Position numbers and translations under genes: made by a program
In this document: one piece after another, positions 5,745-16,250 of the stretch
Numbering within the stretch: position 1 is the first letter of the stretch
Layout: each line of letters begins with the position of its first letter
Virus record (IMG/VR): IMGVR_UViG_3300027759_000371
Coordinates: 1 to 26,492 of that record
DNA length: 26,492 bases
DNA from: a virus
Direction: 5' to 3' (one strand)
The notes under the pieces: model-generated
Told to the model about the DNA's origin: nothing
Database searches by the model: none
What the model saw: only the letters and a program-made list of their open reading frames with translations

Positions 5745-7487
5745 ATGAAAAAAATAATACTAGAACAGGTTGATAAATTAAATGTTAAAGAAAAGAGTAA
5801 ATACGATGCCGCTATAAAGTCGGGATTTAAAATTACTACTGTTAAAGAGTTTAATAAGGATACTGCGAATTATGAATATAAGTCGTTTGGAACGGGATAT
5901 AGTCCCGCAATTCAGCCTGTTTATGTTAGAAAAAAGAAAACAGTTAGCCCCCCAAAACCAGTTGAAACTGAAAAAGAAAAAAAAGACAAAAAACCTTATA
6001 GTGAAGTAAAATTACCGTTTACAAAAACTTCAGAGAGTGATGAGTTTAGAGCTTGGTTATTATCAAAATTTCCTGATTATGGAGATGAGGTAAAAATGAC
6101 CAAATTATTAACTGTCGCTAAACCATCATCAAAATACAAAACATCAGACGCCCTTAAAAACGCTTATTTTGATAAAGGTGCTGAATATGTAAAATGGGTT
6201 ACTGGTGGTGGAAAAGTTGATAGTAAAACATTTGCAGTTACTGACGGAACATATATACCAACCAATGACAAACCAACTGAAATAGAAAAAACTACTAAGA
6301 AGATAAAAAGAATGGGATGTAAAAATGTTGGTGATACTAGCAGATTTAAAACCTTATCCTCTGACGATTCTCAAAGAAATGATTTTGTTAGAGATTTTTT
6401 ATCGTGGTGGAAGAAAAAATTCAATAAGATATTTTTTGTATCAGATGGTAAATGTGGTATGTATCCTAGAACGGTATCCAGTTGGATTTATGGTGTTTTA
6501 TATGATGAAAACGGTGATGAGTATTACGCATGGCAAGATGAAAATATAAATAATCTCGCAAATGTTAAAGATACAACTGAAGAAGGAGATGATACTACAT
6601 ATTTTGATATGTGGTTAAGAGATAGAGAGTTAAATATAAGAGCTCAAGAAGAAAAAAGAAAAGAAATACAAAATAAATACGGTGATAAAAACGAAAAAGA
6701 AATATCAGTTGTTAAAGATTTTGAAGGTCTTAAACTAGCGGCTGGTAACGCCAAAATTAACCCTACTAGACAAAATTGTAAGGTGTTATTCCAACAAACG
6801 AAAGGTTACAATAATACTGATAAAACTATTAACGCAACCATTGAAACTTGTAGGTCAAAATTCCCATTGATGGACATACCTGAAAGTCTTGAAAATAAAA
6901 TATCCGGAAAATTAAAACTAATGAAAGAAAATAAAAGTTTAAGTGAATCTATAACTAATAAGATTAAATCAAAGAAATATGAAAAAACTTTGGGTGGTCT
7001 ATCAGAACAGTTCGACAAACAAAATTACAGAAAATTCTTTGATACGTTAACTAAATTTAGAAATAACAATATCAACGAAGCGACAAATTCAGAATTTGAA
7101 AAATCATTTGATGTTATTTTCCAAGGTAAAGAAACAGAGTTTAAAAACAGAGCGATAGAATATATCTTAGGTAAATTGGAAGTTTCACCATCGTCTGAAC
7201 TTGGTAAAAGTATTAAATCAGAATTAGATAGAGTACCAGCTAAAGACATGTTTAGAAATGAATATGATGTCCCTGAGGCAATATCAAAGGCTATTGAGAC
7301 ATCTTCACAATCAAATAATGGTGAACAAACAGGATTAAAAGGTATTGTATCTCAATCAATTAAATTTGACGATAAACAAATCAAACAAGGTGTTAGACAA
7401 CATCTTCATGATTATATCGAAGGAGTTAAAGATGATATTAAGTCTTTGGAACAAAAATTAAAAAGTTCGATAGTACAAGGTCTTTAA
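5745..7487 (+). CDS. Large probable virion protein, unknown function
   Basis: The protein has 580 residues, starting at ATG 5745, nine bases after the previous stop and with no TATTTATA box of its own. Residues 89-150 hold a segment (SDEFRAWLLSKFPDYGDEV, then ALKNAYFDKGAEYVKW) that resembles residues 97-152 of the protein at 2351-4186. A second region at about 200-265 contains two Cys-Gly pairs and a Trp-rich stretch (FLSWWKKKF), with CGMYPRTVSSWIYGVLYDENG. The last 200 residues are helical and charged and end in a likely coiled coil (VKDDIKSLEQKLKSSIVQGL). I know similar C-terminal patterns from uncharacterised phage structural proteins, but I cannot name the family. Its stop overlaps the HNH gene on the other strand by four bases, and its terminator seems to lie inside that gene. 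Confidence 0.82.
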   Translation: MKKIILEQVDKLNVKEKSKYDAAIKSGFKITTVKEFNKDTANYEYKSFGTGYSPAIQPVYVRKKKTVSPPKPVETEKEKKDKKPYSEVKLPFTKTSESDEFRAWLLSKFPDYGDEVKMTKLLTVAKPSSKYKTSDALKNAYFDKGAEYVKWVTGGGKVDSKTFAVTDGTYIPTNDKPTEIEKTTKKIKRMGCKNVGDTSRFKTLSSDDSQRNDFVRDFLSWWKKKFNKIFFVSDGKCGMYPRTVSSWIYGVLYDENGDEYYAWQDENINNLANVKDTTEEGDDTTYFDMWLRDRELNIRAQEEKRKEIQNKYGDKNEKEISVVKDFEGLKLAAGNAKINPTRQNCKVLFQQTKGYNNTDKTINATIETCRSKFPLMDIPESLENKISGKLKLMKENKSLSESITNKIKSKKYEKTLGGLSEQFDKQNYRKFFDTLTKFRNNNINEATNSEFEKSFDVIFQGKETEFKNRAIEYILGKLEVSPSSELGKSIKSELDRVPAKDMFRNEYDVPEAISKAIETSSQSNNGEQTGLKGIVSQSIKFDDKQIKQGVRQHLHDYIEGVKDDIKSLEQKLKSSIVQGL

Positions 7488-8676: not shown

Positions 8677-9294
8677 GTGAAGGAAATTATACCAACAATT
8701 ATTACATCAGTAACATCTATCATTATAGCATTAATTACCGCAGGGGTTTTTAACATGATGAAAGAAAAAAGAGCGAAACAAAACTCAAGAAACAAACTTT
8801 CACAACAAATAGAAACAGACGAAATTGTTCATTCTACGTTAAGAGAAATAAGAAGAAAATATAACGCAGATAGAATATATGTCATCCAATTTCACAATGG
8901 TGGTAATTTTTATACATCGTCAGCAATGCAAAAAGCCTCAGTTACATATGAAAGATGTTCTGACGGACTTGAAAGAATAACTGAAAAAATACAAAATGTA
9001 TTTGTAAGTCACTATAATTGGTTGATTAAACAAACTATGGAGCACGGATTGTTTATTCACGATTGTGAGCATATTTCCGATATATCAACAAGAGCATTAA
9101 TTAAAAAGTTTGGAACACAGTCTATGGTAGCATTACCAATTACGGATAAAGATAATCATTTGATTGCTCTTCTTTGTATGGATTGGGTATTCAGTGAGCA
9201 TGTTGAGATATATTGTGAAAATGAGGAGTTTACAAAGACTTTTGTTGAAGAATTTAAAACTGATACCGAATCGGTTAAAAACTTTTTGATTTAA
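8677..9294 (+). CDS. Membrane-anchored protein with a GAF-like domain
   Basis: The protein has 205 residues and starts with GTG (8677), as no ATG is available before the hydrophobic segment. Residues 4-26 form a clear N-terminal membrane anchor (IIPTIITSVTSIIIALITAG) followed by a basic linker (KEKRAKQNSRNK). From about residue 45 the pattern of secondary structure and the segments DRIYVIQFHNGGNFYTSS, SMVALPITDKDNHLIALLCM and the C-terminal helix resemble a GAF-type sensory domain. I have seen this anchor-plus-domain arrangement in uncharacterised phage proteins; no ligand residues can be assigned. It ends in a four-base overlap with the convergent DnaJ-like gene. It may act at the host inner membrane, but its role is unknown. 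Confidence 0.8.
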   Translation: MKEIIPTIITSVTSIIIALITAGVFNMMKEKRAKQNSRNKLSQQIETDEIVHSTLREIRRKYNADRIYVIQFHNGGNFYTSSAMQKASVTYERCSDGLERITEKIQNVFVSHYNWLIKQTMEHGLFIHDCEHISDISTRALIKKFGTQSMVALPITDKDNHLIALLCMDWVFSEHVEIYCENEEFTKTFVEEFKTDTESVKNFLI

Positions 9295-10058
9295 TAATCT
9301 AAATCAAAGTTTGGGTTACTAGCCCTATTACCAACCCATCCAGCGGTATCTATTTCATAAAAATATTCGGTATTATATTCTAAATCTTCAGTTGTCTCAA
9401 CTTCTATTGCTATTGGTAGTGCATATATAAATATAGTTTCATTTGTCTCTTCATAATCTGTGATTGTGTCAGAGTCAATTTTGTCATATCTGTTAAGTTT
9501 ACTAACTTCTGATTTTAATTCTTCATTAATACTAAAATAAATGTCTAATTTTAATTCGTAAGCATCGCTTTTTTGTTGTTCACCTGTACCACTACAGTCA
9601 TAACAATCTTCATGACCGCTACCCCCACAGGTATCACAATCACTTTTACCACCACCATCACAATTTCCACATGTTTCACCTTCTTCGTTTTCACCTTCAC
9701 CACCACAATCAGAACATTCTACTTCACCTGAACCATCACATTCACTGCAACTAATCTCACCATCACCACCACAGTAATCACAGCTTTCCTGAACTTCAGT
9801 ATCAAATACATTGGCAATTGCGTAGGTAAATCTTTCATTATCTACTTTCCATAATATTGATTCAAATTCTTTTTCACCATTATTAATAGCACCGATTAAA
9901 AATACCAATTTAACAAAATCCCATCCTTCTAACACGGACATCATTTGTTGATACGGGCCTTTACTGCTATTTAATTTTCTTGATATTTGTGCGACATTTG
10001 TATCTTTAATCGATAAAGATAACTTTTGAGCAATTCTAATTAATTTATTGTTTTCCAT
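9291..10058 (-). CDS. DnaJ-like Cys-rich zinc-finger protein without a J domain
   Basis: The protein has 255 residues, starting at ATG 10058 just after a late-type box; an ATG 14 codons upstream would run through that box. Residues 93-158 carry six CxxC motifs (Cys 93/96, 104/107, 115/118, 130/133, 141/144, 152/155), most as CxxCxGxG, the signature of the DnaJ Cys-rich domain. DnaJ itself has four such repeats binding two zincs; here there are six, enough for three. There is no J domain (no HPD), so it is unlikely to stimulate DnaK by itself. The N-terminal 90 residues and the acidic C-terminal 95 residues are unrecognised. A role in protein folding or holding is an inference from the zinc domain alone. 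Confidence 0.87.
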   Translation of the reverse strand: MENNKLIRIAQKLSLSIKDTNVAQISRKLNSSKGPYQQMMSVLEGWDFVKLVFLIGAINNGEKEFESILWKVDNERFTYAIANVFDTEVQESCDYCGGDGEISCSECDGSGEVECSDCGGEGENEEGETCGNCDGGGKSDCDTCGGSGHEDCYDCSGTGEQQKSDAYELKLDIYFSINEELKSEVSKLNRYDKIDSDTITDYEETNETIFIYALPIAIEVETTEDLEYNTEYFYEIDTAGWVGNRASNPNFDLDY

Positions 10059-10060
10059 AA

Positions 10061-10072
10061 TATTTATAAATA
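10061..10072. promoter_or_regulatory. Overlapping divergent TATTTATA boxes
   Basis: Twelve bases hold TATTTATA on the plus strand (10061-10068, 17 bases before ATG 10086) and on the minus strand (10072-10065, 6 bases before ATG 10058). The two sites share four bases, so both genes could not easily be started at once. Confidence 0.5.
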
Positions 10073-10085
10073 TACCATTTTTATA

Positions 10086-11747
10086 ATGAATAAAAAACAA
10101 TTACACGAACAATCGTTAAAGGAACTACGTAAGTTAGAATATATCTTTGAGGAGGAATCAACTGCAAGACCTGTTGCAACAAGTGTTAAAAGTCACTTGG
10201 AAGGTTTAGGATACGAAACTAAAAGAACAATGGCGGAAGTTGGTGATTTAACTCCTGAATTTGGGGACACCTTAAAAGATGTCGGAAGTGCATTTAAACA
10301 AAAATTACCTGATTTAAAAATAAAGTTTGGTTCAGGTAGAGATTTATTTCATAAAGCATATCCAAATAGTAGACACAATAAAGGTAATGCTATTGATGTT
10401 GTATTCAAAGGAATTGAAAAAGGTGATGATGATGAATTAAATAAAATCTCAACTTTACTATGTGCGTTAAGAAAAAAATACCCCGGATTTACATTTATTG
10501 ATGAGTATAGAAGACCAAGTAGATTCTCAACAGGAGTTCATTATCATTTATCATATTCAGATAGTAAAACAGATGAAGGTGGTGGAACCTCTCAATTTTG
10601 TTCGTCCCTAAAAAACTTAGATAATTTAGAAGATATTGATTTTGAAAAAATTGATAACCTACAAACAACAGAAACAACAAAAGACCCTAGTAAATTAGAG
10701 AAGTTCTTAGATTATATTGGATTAGGAAGTTTAACTGATATTAAATCAGGTGATAAAGAAAGTCAAAAAGAATTGGTATCAAAGGTTCAAGATAAAGAAG
10801 ATGTTAAAGATACTGATGACGGATTTGAAATCTTTGGATATAATGTTGACGATATAATAAATAAAATTGATGACATTTTACCTCAATTTGAGTCGGAACA
10901 AAAGAGAAAGAATATTTTAGAAACTCTTGCAATTAGAGATATTTCAGGAATGTCAACTTACGGAAGGAAAAATGAAAAACTTAAATCAAGAGATTTTTTT
11001 GTTATCCACCATACCGCAGGTAGAGGTGATGCTGAAAAAGTTGTTGGTATTCTTAACAGTAGAAAAGGTGGATTAGGAGTTCAGTGGGTTATAGAAAGAG
11101 ATGGGTCAATTGTTAGAACATTACCAAGTGGAAGTAGAGGCGCACACACTTTAAATTCAAGTGATTTCCCATCGGCACCACAAGGAATTAATAATTCTAA
11201 CGCTGAAGGTGTTGAAGTTATTGGTATGAATGATGAGGACATTTTACCAGTACAAGCGGTTTCAGCACTTAAATTAGTTAAATCTTTGGGGTATAGTCCT
11301 GATAGTATTTACGGTCATGGTGAAATAAATCCGGGGCATAAAGCAAAAACTGAGGGTCAAACAATCAAACAATTCATTTTAAAAAATTGGGGTAATAGTG
11401 AATCTGATTATGATTATTCTATGTTTGAAAATAGGGGAATTGATGTTGAGGCGGAAACAAAGAATATTAAAGAACCAAGTAAATTGGATTCATTTTTAGA
11501 TGCCGTTGGATTAGGAAGTCTGACAGGGGCTAAAGCTGGTGATAAAGAAAGTCAAAAAGAATTAGTTTCAAAGGTTGAGAATGAAAAAGACGTTAAAGAT
11601 ACTGGCGATGGATTTGAAATTTTTGGATATAAAGTTGACGATATATTAGATAAAATTGGTGATTTATTACCTCAATTTGAATCAGAACAAGAAAAAAAGA
11701 ATCTTTTAGAAGATATTGAAAGAATTAAATCAAAAATGATTAAATAA
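10086..11747 (+). CDS. Two-domain peptidoglycan hydrolase (peptidase plus amidase) with a duplicated module
   Basis: The protein has 553 residues. Residues 80-158 look like an M15-type D-Ala-D-Ala or L-Ala-D-Glu peptidase: SRHNKGNAIDVVF (His97, Asp104) and GVHYHLSY (His152, His154), the usual zinc set. Residues 300-430 look like an N-acetylmuramoyl-L-alanine amidase of the Amidase_2/PGRP type: FFVIHHTAGR (His308/309), NAEGVEVIG and GHGEINPGHKAKTEG (His411), with Glu423 where many relatives have Asp or Cys as third zinc ligand. A 79-residue module occurs twice, before and after the amidase (201-279 and 464-542). Both activities cut peptidoglycan, so this is a lysin. The N-terminal peptide MNKKQLHEQSLKEL resembles those of the virion proteins, so it may be carried in the particle rather than act only at lysis. 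Confidence 0.88.
   Translation: MNKKQLHEQSLKELRKLEYIFEEESTARPVATSVKSHLEGLGYETKRTMAEVGDLTPEFGDTLKDVGSAFKQKLPDLKIKFGSGRDLFHKAYPNSRHNKGNAIDVVFKGIEKGDDDELNKISTLLCALRKKYPGFTFIDEYRRPSRFSTGVHYHLSYSDSKTDEGGGTSQFCSSLKNLDNLEDIDFEKIDNLQTTETTKDPSKLEKFLDYIGLGSLTDIKSGDKESQKELVSKVQDKEDVKDTDDGFEIFGYNVDDIINKIDDILPQFESEQKRKNILETLAIRDISGMSTYGRKNEKLKSRDFFVIHHTAGRGDAEKVVGILNSRKGGLGVQWVIERDGSIVRTLPSGSRGAHTLNSSDFPSAPQGINNSNAEGVEVIGMNDEDILPVQAVSALKLVKSLGYSPDSIYGHGEINPGHKAKTEGQTIKQFILKNWGNSESDYDYSMFENRGIDVEAETKNIKEPSKLDSFLDAVGLGSLTGAKAGDKESQKELVSKVENEKDVKDTGDGFEIFGYKVDDILDKIGDLLPQFESEQEKKNLLEDIERIKSKMIK
10686..10922 (+). repeat. Copy 1 of the 237-base (79-residue) repeat in the lysin gene
   Basis: It encodes PSKLEKFLDYIGLGSLTD to LPQFESEQKRKNILE. 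The other copy at 11475-11711 has exactly the same length and shares most residues, including GDKESQKELVSKV and DGFEIFGY. Confidence 0.9.
11475..11711 (+). repeat. Copy 2 of the 237-base (79-residue) repeat in the lysin gene
   Basis: It encodes PSKLDSFLDAVGLGSLTG to LPQFESEQEKKNLLE, lined up with copy 1 without a gap. The identical spans GDKESQKELVSKV and LPQFESEQ show a duplication rather than chance likeness. Confidence 0.9.
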
Positions 11748-11773
11748 AAAAAGGGACTGAAAAGTCCCTTTTT
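11748..11773. terminator. Bidirectional terminator between the lysin gene and tmRNA
   Basis: AAAAAGGGACT (11748-11758), loop GAAA, AGTCCCTTTTT (11763-11773): a symmetric hairpin with A-run and T-run, starting right after the lysin stop and ending 3 bases past the tmRNA 3' end, so it can end both transcripts. Confidence 0.88.
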
Positions 11774-11776
11774 AAT

Positions 11777-12169
11777 TGGTGGAGGTGCTGGGTTTCGAAC
11801 CCAGGTCCAAAAATGTTTACGATAAAACACTACACGTTTAGGTCATTGTTTTTCTAAACAATCCGAAACTTCACAATTCCCTTATTTTATAGTGGTTCGG
11901 TTTACTGAGAACTAATCCTCCACTTTGTTCCTTTTCGGATAGAAACCACACCACGGTACGAGCTTCTGTTTCAAGGCGTATGCTTACCGGCCCATTGTAT
12001 ACTAATCTTAGATTAGGCTACAGATACTTCTTCAGTACGGATTAAACCGAGTGTAGAAAGTTTTGCAATTGTGTTGCCGTTTGTTTTTTAAACCAGTTTT
12101 ACAGGGTTAGTTTAGCCCCGACGTGCGTTTTATAATAAATTCATTCCTGTCAAATCCAGAAACACCCCC
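11777..12169 (-). ncRNA. ssrA: Phage-encoded transfer-messenger RNA (tmRNA)
   Basis: Read leftward, the 393-base RNA has every tmRNA landmark. The 5' end GGGGGTGTTTCTGGATTTGA is close to the bacterial consensus. Its first seven bases pair with CACCTCC at the 3' end, followed by A and an encoded CCA (11777-11779). The T-arm is CTGGG-TTCGAAA-CCCAG. ATAAAACG-CACG near the 5' end pairs with CGTG...TGTTTTAT near the 3' end (helix 2). An H-type pseudoknot (GGG/CCC and TAAACT/GGTTTA) lies ten bases before the proposed resume codon GGC at 12078-12076. That frame encodes a 21-residue tag beginning GNTIAKLSTL and ending RTEEVSVA, with TAA at 12015-12013 followed by a CTAATC/GATTAG hairpin. tmRNA and SmpB free stalled ribosomes and mark the nascent protein for proteolysis. 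No SmpB gene is in the window, so the host's is presumably used. The tag is long and lacks the usual YALAA end. Confidence 0.95.
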
Positions 12170-12190
12170 ATAAATCAAAGAACTATGTTA

Positions 12191-12221
12191 CAAAGATATA
12201 AATATATTCTTCTTTTACCAA
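12191..12221 (-). promoter_or_regulatory. Host-like promoter for the tmRNA
   Basis: On the minus strand TTG (12221-12219), 20 bases, then TATCTTTG (12198-12191), an exact TAnnTTTG. It ends 21 bases before the mature 5' end, which fits a short leader removed by RNase P. Confidence 0.65.
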
Positions 12222-12243: not shown

Positions 12244-13323
12244 ATGAGTCAACTTTATCAAGCATTAAAAGATTTTACGGAAGGTTTAGCTACTGCAAAT
12301 TTTGTTAGATACGAAGACGATGAAGATATTTTACGTATTACAAGAATAAATGAAAAAAATCTTGGTAAATCTTTGGTTTATTTAACATTTGATACTGAGG
12401 ATTATGTTGACCTTTTCACTAGAAATAATGATGAAACTAATAACGGTTATTTAATTAGAGTTGCTTTCCAAGGGGGGTATTATGGAGATAATGTTTTCGT
12501 TGATGATTATTCCATGGATTATGATTGGGATGAGGGTTATTTACTACATTATTTCAATAATGAGAATTTAGATAGGGTCAAACAAATAGTAAAAATATTA
12601 CGACCTAGTCTTTCCGTAGAGAATTTAACAGAACATAACGATAAAATTATTGAAATTTGTAAGTGGTTAAAAAATGATTTTTCAAATGAGATAGATAGTA
12701 TTATTTACGATTATTCAAGTGAATATGATGAAGCACTCGTTAAAGGATTAAGACAATATGTTACATCTAAATTATGTAACGCTTTACTTCCTTTAAATAT
12801 CTTTGAGAAAAAATGTACTAATCTCTACATGACAACTGTAGCAATTCTTTTAAATACTTGGGATAAATCTGGTGAAGACAAAGACGCTAAACTTTCAGAT
12901 ATGTTAAAAACAAGTATTGACCAATTGGGAATACAGTTTGATGAAGATTTATATGAAGATTATTATGCTTATTTTGATAGTCAAAATTATGATGATGAAA
13001 GTTTTAACAGAAGTGTAACTTGGAATCTTGATAAAATCATGGAAAAAATTGAAGATAGTGATAATATTGATTCTTATCGTAAAAACTCTGAAGTACTTGA
13101 AAAATTGTCAAATTTAAAGTATGGTGATATTGGTAAATGGTATGAATTTCCTCCACAAAAAACATTTGGCGAAAAAACACCAAACAAATTCATAATTCAA
13201 GATGTTAATGACGGAAAAATACTTATTACATATACTGACTATGAAAAAAATCAATTTAACCAAACCGTTAAAATTGATTATGATACTTTCTTAAATTTTT
13301 TATATCATCCTGAATTGTTTTAA
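12244..13323 (+). CDS. Acidic hypothetical protein
   Basis: This 359-residue protein matches nothing I recognise. It is rich in Asp, Glu, Tyr and Asn throughout, with predicted alpha/beta content. The first 110 residues look like a small domain with strands (SLVYLTFDTEDYVDLFTRN, then GYLIRVAFQGGYYGDNVFVD). The middle is helical (KLCNALLPLNIFEKKCTN). The C-terminal 60 residues have a separate beta-like look (KFIIQDVNDGKILITYTDYE). It is divergently placed to the tmRNA and starts with a TATTTATT box. The gap between this gene and the peptidase (27 bases) contains a host-like promoter, so they may not share regulation. No link to tmRNA function can be shown from the sequence. Confidence 0.8.
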   Translation: MSQLYQALKDFTEGLATANFVRYEDDEDILRITRINEKNLGKSLVYLTFDTEDYVDLFTRNNDETNNGYLIRVAFQGGYYGDNVFVDDYSMDYDWDEGYLLHYFNNENLDRVKQIVKILRPSLSVENLTEHNDKIIEICKWLKNDFSNEIDSIIYDYSSEYDEALVKGLRQYVTSKLCNALLPLNIFEKKCTNLYMTTVAILLNTWDKSGEDKDAKLSDMLKTSIDQLGIQFDEDLYEDYYAYFDSQNYDDESFNRSVTWNLDKIMEKIEDSDNIDSYRKNSEVLEKLSNLKYGDIGKWYEFPPQKTFGEKTPNKFIIQDVNDGKILITYTDYEKNQFNQTVKIDYDTFLNFLYHPELF

Positions 13324-14174: not shown

Positions 14175-14201
14175 AAAAAAGGGGGTTTATTCCCCCTTTT
14201 T
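14175..14201. terminator. Bidirectional terminator between peptidase and clpC
   Basis: A-run plus GGGGG (14181-14185), a six-base loop, then CCCCC (14192-14196) plus T-run. The right half also encodes the last residues of ClpC (KKKGE and stop at 14189-14187). Confidence 0.85.
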
Positions 14202-16250
14202 CTTTCTTGGTCTTTTCACTTTTGATGTTTCATCAGGTTGAATTTCAATTTCTGATATTGACACTTCTTCCTCATTAATTTCAATATTGTAGGTTTTATC
14301 CATTACAATTTTTTCACGTAATACTTCATCTGAAATGTAGTCTTCAATCTTTTCTTGAATTGCTCTCTTCAAAGGACGCGCTCCGTAAACATCATCAAAT
14401 CCAACTTTTGAAACAAAGTCAATTACTGACTGACCGAAGTTAATGTTATATCCCAATTTTGACAAACGAGATTTCAATTTGTTAACTTCAACCAAAACAA
14501 TCTTTTGAATATCGTCATTTTGAAGTGTATTGAATACAATTACCTCATCCAAACGATTGATAAACTCAGGTGCGAAGTGATTCTTCAATTCTTTGTTTAA
14601 CATTGTTTTCTTAAGTTCTTCGTTGGTATAAACATTACCTGTCTTACTAAATCCAACACCTGCTCCAAACTCTTGCATCTTTTTCACCCCAAGATTTGAT
14701 GTCATAATGATTAGACAGTTCTTGAAATTAATTTTTCTTCCAAAACTATCCGTCATATAACCTTCATCTAATAGTTGAAGTAATGCTGAGAAGATATCTT
14801 TGTGTGCTTTCTCAACCTCGTCAAATAATACCACAGAGTATGGTTTAGTTTTAACTTGTTCTGTAAGTTGTCCACCTTCATCGTATCCTACATAGCCAGG
14901 AGGAGAACCAATCAAACGAGATACAGTATGTTTATCTTGGTACTCAGACATATCAACTCGAATAAGATTTTCATCGCTACCAAAGATTTGTTTTGCTAAT
15001 TCTTTTGCCAATAATGTCTTACCAACACCTGTTGAACCTAAGAATATAAATGAACCAATTGGTTTATTTGGGTCCTTGATACCTAATCTATTTCTACGAA
15101 TAGATTTCGCAATCTTTGTAACCGCTTCTTTTTGTCCGATAACCGATTTATTTAATTCTTCTTCTAAATTAATAAGAGCAATCTTATCATCTAAATTAAG
15201 TTTTGTTAAAGGTATTTTTGTCATTGTTGACACCACCTCGTAAACCAATTCTTCAGAAATTGTTTTTCTATTATCTAATAAAGTTTGTTCAAACTTTTTC
15301 TTTTCAATATCAAGTTGTGATAAAACTTTCTTTTCTTTATCTCTTAAGTTTGCGGCTTCTTCATAATTCTGTTTTTTAACAACAAGTAATTTTTGTTGTT
15401 TAATCTCTAACGCCTGACGTTTTAATTCATCAATTATCTCAGGATTTTTTACATCCACCTGAGCTCTTGCTCCGACTTCATCCAAGATGTCAAATGCTTT
15501 ATCAGGGAACTCTCTGTCCGTGATATATCGCTCTGCTAAGTCAACACAGATTTGTAGAATATTATCGGTATAATTTACTTTGTGATAATTTTCGTATCTG
15601 TCTTTAACATTTTTAAGGATTTGTAATGTTTCTTCTTTTGTTGATGAACTAACAATTACTTTTTGGAAACGTCTATCCAACGCTCCGTCCTTTTCAATTT
15701 GTTTTTTGTATTCGTCCAATGTAGTAGCTCCAATACATTGTATTTCACCTCTCGATAATGCTGGCTTTAAGATGTTGGATGCGTCCATGGAACCTGAGGC
15801 ATTACCCGCTCCGACAATAGTATGGATTTCATCAATGAATAGAATAACATTTGGGTTTGCTTGAATTTCTTCCAAAATAACCTTTAATCTCTCTTCAAAT
15901 TGACCACGATACTTTGTTCCGGCAACAACTGAATTCATTTCTAATGAAAGAATACGTTTGTCAACCAAGTTTCTTGGACAATCACCTTCAAAAATCTTCA
16001 TTGCTAATCCCTCAACAATTGCCGTCTTACCACAACCAGGTTCACCGATGATAATTGGGTTATTTTTCTTTCTTCTTGAAAGAATTTGAGCAATACGTAA
16101 TATTTCGTCTTCCCTACCAACAACTGGGTCTAACTTACCTTCTTCAGCAAGTTTAATAAGGTCACGACTAAAATTGTCTAAAACAGGTGTACTTGAGTTA
16201 ACCTCTGCTTTTTTTGGTAGTTTCCCACCTTCTTCAACTGAATCTGTCAT
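14187..16250 (-). CDS. clpC: ClpC-type AAA+ unfoldase without N-domain
   Basis: I start this 687-residue protein at ATG 16250; the frame extends 15 codons up to a TTG, which is less likely. Both AAA+ rings are complete. D1 has Walker A GEPGCGKT (69-76) and Walker B ILFIDEIHT (136-144). D2 has GSTGVGKT (405-412), VVLFDEVEKAH (473-483) and the arginine finger in FINRLDE. A short middle domain with a UVR-like helix (YEEAANLRDKEKK, about 295) marks ClpC rather than ClpB. VGF at 532-534 is the tripeptide that docks on ClpP, so it should feed a protease. The usual 150-residue repeat N-domain is missing: only about 20 residues precede TPVLDNFSRDL. That domain binds adaptors and substrates. No ClpP gene is visible here, so host ClpP would be the partner. 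The gene may derive from a Bacteroidota host clpC. Confidence 0.95.
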   Translation of the reverse strand: MTDSVEEGGKLPKKAEVNSSTPVLDNFSRDLIKLAEEGKLDPVVGREDEILRIAQILSRRKKNNPIIIGEPGCGKTAIVEGLAMKIFEGDCPRNLVDKRILSLEMNSVVAGTKYRGQFEERLKVILEEIQANPNVILFIDEIHTIVGAGNASGSMDASNILKPALSRGEIQCIGATTLDEYKKQIEKDGALDRRFQKVIVSSSTKEETLQILKNVKDRYENYHKVNYTDNILQICVDLAERYITDREFPDKAFDILDEVGARAQVDVKNPEIIDELKRQALEIKQQKLLVVKKQNYEEAANLRDKEKKVLSQLDIEKKKFEQTLLDNRKTISEELVYEVVSTMTKIPLTKLNLDDKIALINLEEELNKSVIGQKEAVTKIAKSIRRNRLGIKDPNKPIGSFIFLGSTGVGKTLLAKELAKQIFGSDENLIRVDMSEYQDKHTVSRLIGSPPGYVGYDEGGQLTEQVKTKPYSVVLFDEVEKAHKDIFSALLQLLDEGYMTDSFGRKINFKNCLIIMTSNLGVKKMQEFGAGVGFSKTGNVYTNEELKKTMLNKELKNHFAPEFINRLDEVIVFNTLQNDDIQKIVLVEVNKLKSRLSKLGYNINFGQSVIDFVSKVGFDDVYGARPLKRAIQEKIEDYISDEVLREKIVMDKTYNIEINEEEVSISEIEIQPDETSKVKRPRKKKGE

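Follow-up and report, generated by a model that had tools for sequence, protein, structure and literature searches.

The bacterial SsrA tag is encoded codon by codon, ends in small hydrophobic residues and follows the ClpXP/ClpAP route; in the Bacteroidota such tags normally end YALAA. Absence of the N-domain does not stop Hsp100 proteins from drawing C-terminal tags through their pores. tmRNAs have already been reported from phages as well (accessible portions of PMC4131195, PMC9004378 and PMC7162821). The accessible portion of PMC9004378 counts them in 402 of 18,146 phage genomes, mentions ssrA fragments in prophages and offers only possibilities for why phages carry the gene.

The window analyzed here comprises a virus record in full (26,492 bases) and encodes, by PHROG matches, a terminase large subunit (TerL) and a portal protein. 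Like the tmRNAs of mycobacteriophages, Bacillus phage G, Melnitz-like phages and huge phages, the tmRNA of this window is carried by a lytic-type phage genome; unlike those, it belongs to a family that shares a 21-residue tag with a GL[ILV]RTEEV core and has a syntenic ClpC. The tag resembles the bacterial SsrA tag in its codon-by-codon encoding and small hydrophobic end, but it lacks the LAA terminus and has 21 residues, whereas the commonest bacterial tag length is 10 in the accessible portion of PMC11915505. Searches of openly licensed papers turned up no title or abstract on the tag GNTIAKLSTLGLIRTEEVSVA or on a phage tmRNA-ClpC pairing.

Identity and Fold of the tmRNA Gene

Both ARAGORN and the covariance model RF00023 detect the gene, at exactly the positions given by an earlier, sequence-only reading that did not state the strand, which is minus (Table 1). 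The RF00023 match scores 130.5 bits, where the cut-off is 47 (E 3.9e-51), and covers the model in full (1-374 of 374). An acceptor stem with a G-U third pair and an encoded CCA can be read directly from the letters; stem and CCA, together with the T arm, the long helix 2 and the pseudoknot PK1 that emerge from the sequence and the covariance alignment, are the parts that the sequence-only reading had listed. The GGC resume codon follows the 3' arm of PK1 after ten bases, and the stop codon of the tag falls at a predicted hairpin, also in agreement with that reading. The full-length match, the G-U/CCA acceptor, PK1, the resume codon and an open tag frame together place the RNA in RF00023. A G-U third acceptor pair is what alanyl-tRNA synthetase reads; among 28 intron-less relatives this pair is G-U in 27 and G-C in one.

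Table 1. Features of the phage tmRNA locus, in window coordinates
Feature	Positions	Strand	Basis or remark
Inverted repeat GGGACT/AGTCCC, flanked by A and T runs	11746..11773		Read from sequence
tmRNA gene (ssrA), CCA encoded	11777..12169	-	RF00023, ARAGORN, covariation in relatives
Tag reading frame GNTIAKLSTLGLIRTEEVSVA, with stop UAA	12013..12078	-	Frame and length conserved in relatives
TATCTTTG, TAnnTTTG-type element	12191..12198	-	Putative promoter; TTG 20 bases upstream, at 12219-12221
PepT/M42-like metallopeptidase, 272 aa	13351..14169	+	PHROG 4191 peptidase, Foldseek
ClpC-like double AAA+ unfoldase without N-domain, 687 aa from ATG	14187..16250	-	ORF listed to 16295

Most of the helices also covary. 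Pairing was compared across 36 distinct tmRNAs (28 intron-less ones for the T arm and acceptor) with that in shuffles, which do not keep relatedness: it stood at 98% versus 78% in the T arm, 96% versus 90% in the acceptor, 96% versus 80% in the middle of P2, 90% versus 76% at its base and 85% versus 70% in stem 1 of PK1, with little added by stem 2 of PK1 (85% versus 82%) and apical P2 (100% versus 99%). On sequence comparison, then, the gene is an intact phage tmRNA, maintained and under selection.

The inverted repeat just past the CCA is a likely terminator. On the other side, TATCTTTG, which we take to be a match to the Bacteroidota-type TAnnTTTG promoter element, would provide the gene with its own putative promoter, TTG-N20-TATCTTTG. 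TAnnTTTG occurs in 42 of 52 distinct tmRNA upstream regions, mostly at -27 to -38; over the whole window it is not enriched, and the stricter pattern TTTG-N16-23-TAnnTTTG has zero matches there. Also upstream of the tmRNA is GTTCTTTGA (12175-12183, minus strand), shared by many of the 52 distinct upstream regions and presumably akin to the boxA antitermination element.

The Tag in Relatives of the Phage

Relatives were gathered through the ClpC protein (77 loci), TerL (80 loci) and a tmRNA 3'-end pattern (41 stretches), and by a fourth scan with the tag core GL-x-RTEEV-x-(V/A)-A-stop, a pattern that, except at x, dictates residues 11-18, 20 and 21. This core matched 104 stretches in the IMG/VR viral_contigs and none in genome_contigs, a collection that represents each of 84,980 bacterial and archaeal species by one genome and leaves out contigs under 3 kb. 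The tag was likewise absent by tblastn from 50,697 phage records, where the sole match to the tmRNA DNA had 11% coverage (E 0.4). Within the collections searched, the tag is private to these phages.

Every one of the 167 matches, with overlapping loci counted, has (G/D)(N/E/D)xx-x-(K/N)L in residues 1-10, which the pattern leaves free. The tags read from 65 distinct contexts comprise 33 different sequences, 21 residues long in 32 cases and 22 in one, all ending VA (28) or AA (5), in a count that required a partial match in residues 11-17 and in which the core pattern had fixed the VA/AA end for some tags. The LAA terminus of the canonical SsrA degron is thus not found, and the third residue from the end is S, T, A, Y or V, never L. 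At the protein level, positions 6, 7, 11, 14 and 15-18 are nearly fixed, part of 11-18 being fixed by the search pattern, and the charged R-T-E-E stretch is conserved. A divergent branch carries GNVLDKMATIGLIRE(E/D)AAVVA, and the 380-kb record L164 carries GNILENATVGHFVAEDAAVVA, of 21 residues; the tag of L184, GNIFENATVGHFVAEGAAVVA, is equally long and distantly related.

Relatives favor the GGC start because residue 1 is confined to G (31 of the 33 distinct tags) or D (two), residue 5 is variable and the base at -4 of the resume codon is A in 65/65 distinct contexts; the claim of a long, divergent tag beginning at GGC is therefore upheld. ARAGORN starts at a GCA four codons later, giving AKLSTLGLIRTEEVSVA, a choice ruled out by the variation at residue 5 (A, N, D, E, S). 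The sequence-only reading had also offered an alternative frame starting at GCA, which lies one base past GGG/GGC. The 11-residue tag ending LHSV that it encodes does exist in the window, but lengths in the relatives range from 2 to 40, and the 11-residue +1 frame is rejected on that ground. The +2 frame, rejected as well, shows no synonymy excess and ends at 14 residues in 32 of the 38 distinct readings, for which the usual spelling of R-T-E with ACT-GA is the probable cause.

The main synonymy test used 28 distinct tmRNAs obtained through Clp or TerL, without the tag pattern. In the tag frame, 34 of 76 inferred changes were synonymous where random placement gives 22.0 (p 0.002), and neither of the other two frames showed an excess. 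Codons 1-10 alone, over all 68 tips, gave 68 synonymous changes of 166 against 45.9 expected; because the +1 frame exceeds random over the same codons and tips too (53 versus 37.7), they do not by themselves decide the frame.

A Linked Unfoldase without N-domain

The ClpC-like protein of the window shares with bacterial ClpC, a class I Hsp100, the D1 and D2 modules, a coiled M domain, pore loops and a ClpP loop. Its Pfam domains are AAA, AAA_lid_9, AAA_2 and ClpB_D2-small, and its two AAA+ modules with an M domain identify it as ClpC-like. Residues 29-680 align to ClpC 153-803 of 6em9, the match starting at ClpC residue 153. Unlike bacterial ClpC, the phage copies are without an N-domain in 25 of 25 aligned proteins (the window and the near-identical L190 among them), and the ClpP-docking [VIL]GF loop and pore loops are present in every one.

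Genes of this kind are rare among phages, with 166 matches in 50,697 phage records at E 1e-5, several of those listed looking like host contamination. All 40 tested records of the tag family that were found without Clp carry one, against 0 of 10 other phage-tmRNA records. Part of this comparison comes from a set of 26 records, in which 12 family members had been obtained by the tmRNA 3' end, all 12 with the ClpC-like gene, and 11 others through Clp, which offer no test; in the same comparison the gene is present in L153, found by TerL, and in L164, and absent in L194, which has another tag. A further 38 records, chosen for length (34-297 kb), comprised 28 of the family (26 by tag pattern, two by tmRNA pattern), with the gene in 28/28, and 10 others. 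Six of these ten other tmRNAs encode tags ending ALAA or AMAA and two VAVA, the remaining ones being L184, with no Clp on its 50.8-kb fragment, and L166.

The arrangement is constant. In all 43 Clp loci that reach 60% identity and have sufficient flank, the family tag is found downstream of Clp and on its strand (18 further Clp loci being too short for this count), and, seen from the tag, Clp lies upstream on the same strand at 1.3-6.7 kb in 63/63 pattern-scan loci that hold a piece of Clp. Sixteen loci with Clp of about 37% identity have no family tag, and eight of their records, all short, have no tmRNA. The huge phages LR745206, LR756502 and LR756501 possess a ClpC-like gene and no tmRNA over the cut-off. 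LR756508 combines ClpC and a ClpP match with a tmRNA whose frame, picked by eye, ends HGSERKPAAV; LR756504 has three ClpP matches (one with an internal stop), a homologue of the peptidase described below, and a tmRNA whose frame, likewise picked by eye, ends FAPVEMAVAA.

The Peptidase and Other Genes of the Block

The fold of the neighboring peptidase is that of PepT and the M42 (TET) metallopeptidases: the model (pLDDT 89.7) has its best Foldseek match in PepT 3gb0 (E 5.2e-13), followed by TET peptidases. Unlike these, the phage protein has only 272 residues in the window, and its Pfam M42 match is below the cut-off. H66, D68, D109, E135, E136, D160 and H231 are invariant in 17/17 copies, and we take them to be metal or catalytic residues; fold and putative ligands together assign the protein to the PepT/M42 group. 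The gene stands between ClpC and the tmRNA in 22/22 sampled loci, the window counted; outside the subgroup to which the window belongs, it occurs in all 28 loci covered.

Other genes of the block are just as constant (KTSC 15/16, a 253-aa gene 14/14, a 415-aa gene 11/11), while the far side of the tmRNA is not (amidase 4/26, DnaJ-like 5/23). Since the phages are related and these other genes are equally constant, the linkage of ClpC and tmRNA may be inherited synteny. An SspB-like adaptor was considered for the gene that separates tmRNA and peptidase (12244-13323) and rejected, its model (pLDDT 86.1) having no PDB match at E <=0.001; a homologue occurs in only 17 of 33 covered loci. Elsewhere in the window are a DnaJ-like CXXCXGXG zinc protein (9291-10100, below the Pfam cut-off), a dTDP-4-dehydrorhamnose 3,5-epimerase (667-1176) and a GAF-domain protein (8677-9294); 207-aa frames that look similar to the GAF-domain protein by eye lie beside phage ClpP in L202 and L322.

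Host Partners

ClpP is encoded in 8 of 52 family records (3/24 and 5/28), in 3 of 10 others and, with two copies, in the L164 record, and because it is not enriched in the family it marks nothing. The two phage ClpP frames of L202 and L322 hold the Ser, His and Asp motifs when read by eye. Host ClpP is the likely partner of the phage ClpC. An SmpB gene was found in 0 of 64 phage records, which may be fragments, and host SmpB is assumed on that account.

A search for the host through TerL in genome_contigs returned no relative. TerL and portal protein come closest to those of a Flavobacterium phage, of an uncultured huge phage and of a Microcystis phage, with identities of 27-38%, a distance that leaves the host unsettled; a Bacteroidota host is what we infer.

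What the Tag May Do

The reading we tentatively prefer is that the phage tmRNA works and that its tag is a private degron for the N-domainless phage ClpC acting with ClpP, the peptidase trimming what emerges. The host would charge the phage tmRNA with alanine and provide SmpB, and the tmRNA would rescue ribosomes that stall during infection, adding the tag. The later steps are the least certain, above all recognition of the tag by the phage ClpC. This unfoldase may read the tag as a private degron and dock on the ClpP of the host or, in a few records, on one that the phage encodes; the peptidase may trim the products, and stalled products may be cleared and their amino acids recycled by a phage-controlled route. 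Counting against this reading are the constancy of further genes in the block, the lack of ClpP enrichment, the three huge phages in which a ClpC-like gene comes with no tmRNA over the cut-off, the absence of Clp from the L184 fragment and the synonymy excess of the +1 frame in codons 1-10. The sequence-only reading had suggested a changed proteolytic fate through another unfoldase, and the linked phage ClpC lends that suggestion circumstantial support. The strict form of the proposal, an orthogonal pathway in which host proteases largely ignore the private degron and the phage ClpC reads it and feeds ClpP and the peptidase, turning stalled-ribosome rescue into phage-controlled protein recycling, is on the unlikely side.

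A possible, if somewhat doubtful, alternative is that ordinary host proteases read the tag and that ClpC is a phage chaperone unrelated to it, carried in a syntenic block. The VA/AA end of every distinct tag would then be an acceptable degron, the VA end resembling degradable tag variants (LVA, AAV and ASV variants are degradable in E. coli), with the inner tag retained because the ribosome or SmpB has to handle it or because the RNA structure needs it; synteny that reaches beyond ClpC and the three huge phages with ClpC and no tmRNA over the cut-off are consistent with such an arrangement. It leaves unexplained, however, the positions nearly fixed at the protein level and the occurrence of ALAA or AMAA in six of the ten other phage tmRNAs and in none of the GNTIAKLSTLGLIRTEEVSVA family. 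The want of an LAA end and the conserved R-T-E-E stretch might instead suit a tag that spares or relocates proteins, for instance one that blocks host ClpXP or directs them to a phage structure, but the sparing proposed by the sequence-only reading is not borne out and appears improbable, as the small hydrophobic end is kept in 33/33 distinct tags and the linked genes encode an unfoldase and a peptidase. That the gene is a decayed or captured host tmRNA, such as a remnant at a prophage attachment site with a meaningless tag, is barely conceivable. The prophage ssrA fragments noted above provide a precedent; against it stand the full-length covariance match, the covariation, the synonymy excess, a tag conserved in frame and length and the absence of the tag core from genome_contigs. 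Random, stop-filled tags, which the sequence-only reading had named as the sign of decay, were looked for in the relatives and not seen, and its suggestion of relaxed selection is rejected with them.

A selected private tag beside a phage unfoldase makes the question of why phages carry tmRNA testable. If the preferred reading, a degron for the phage ClpC, is true, these phages encode a tag-and-destroy pathway of their own, and the tag and unfoldase would be a new orthogonal degron pair for use in bacteria.

Variation in the tmRNA Body

The tmRNA at L004:7036-7430 keeps the tag of the window (98% identical) with a largely replaced 5' body (43% identical) and a compensated acceptor stem, as if the body had been exchanged. 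Another kind of variation is an interrupted T-loop (GGGTT, insert, CGA), found in 8 of 36 distinct tmRNAs (L023, L024, L025, L030, L031, L034 at 7175-7405, L037 and L150); the 3' exon was located by pattern in five of the eight. The group I intron model RF00028 matches above its cut-off in L034 (69.6 bits) and below it in L025, these being the two given, and group I introns are described at four T-loop sites of bacterial tmRNA in the accessible portion of PMC11915505. One of six scanned sources also has a GOLLD RNA (RF02032, 326.8 bits), at L040:15327-15734 on the minus strand, about 0.5 kb beyond a divergent-branch tmRNA.
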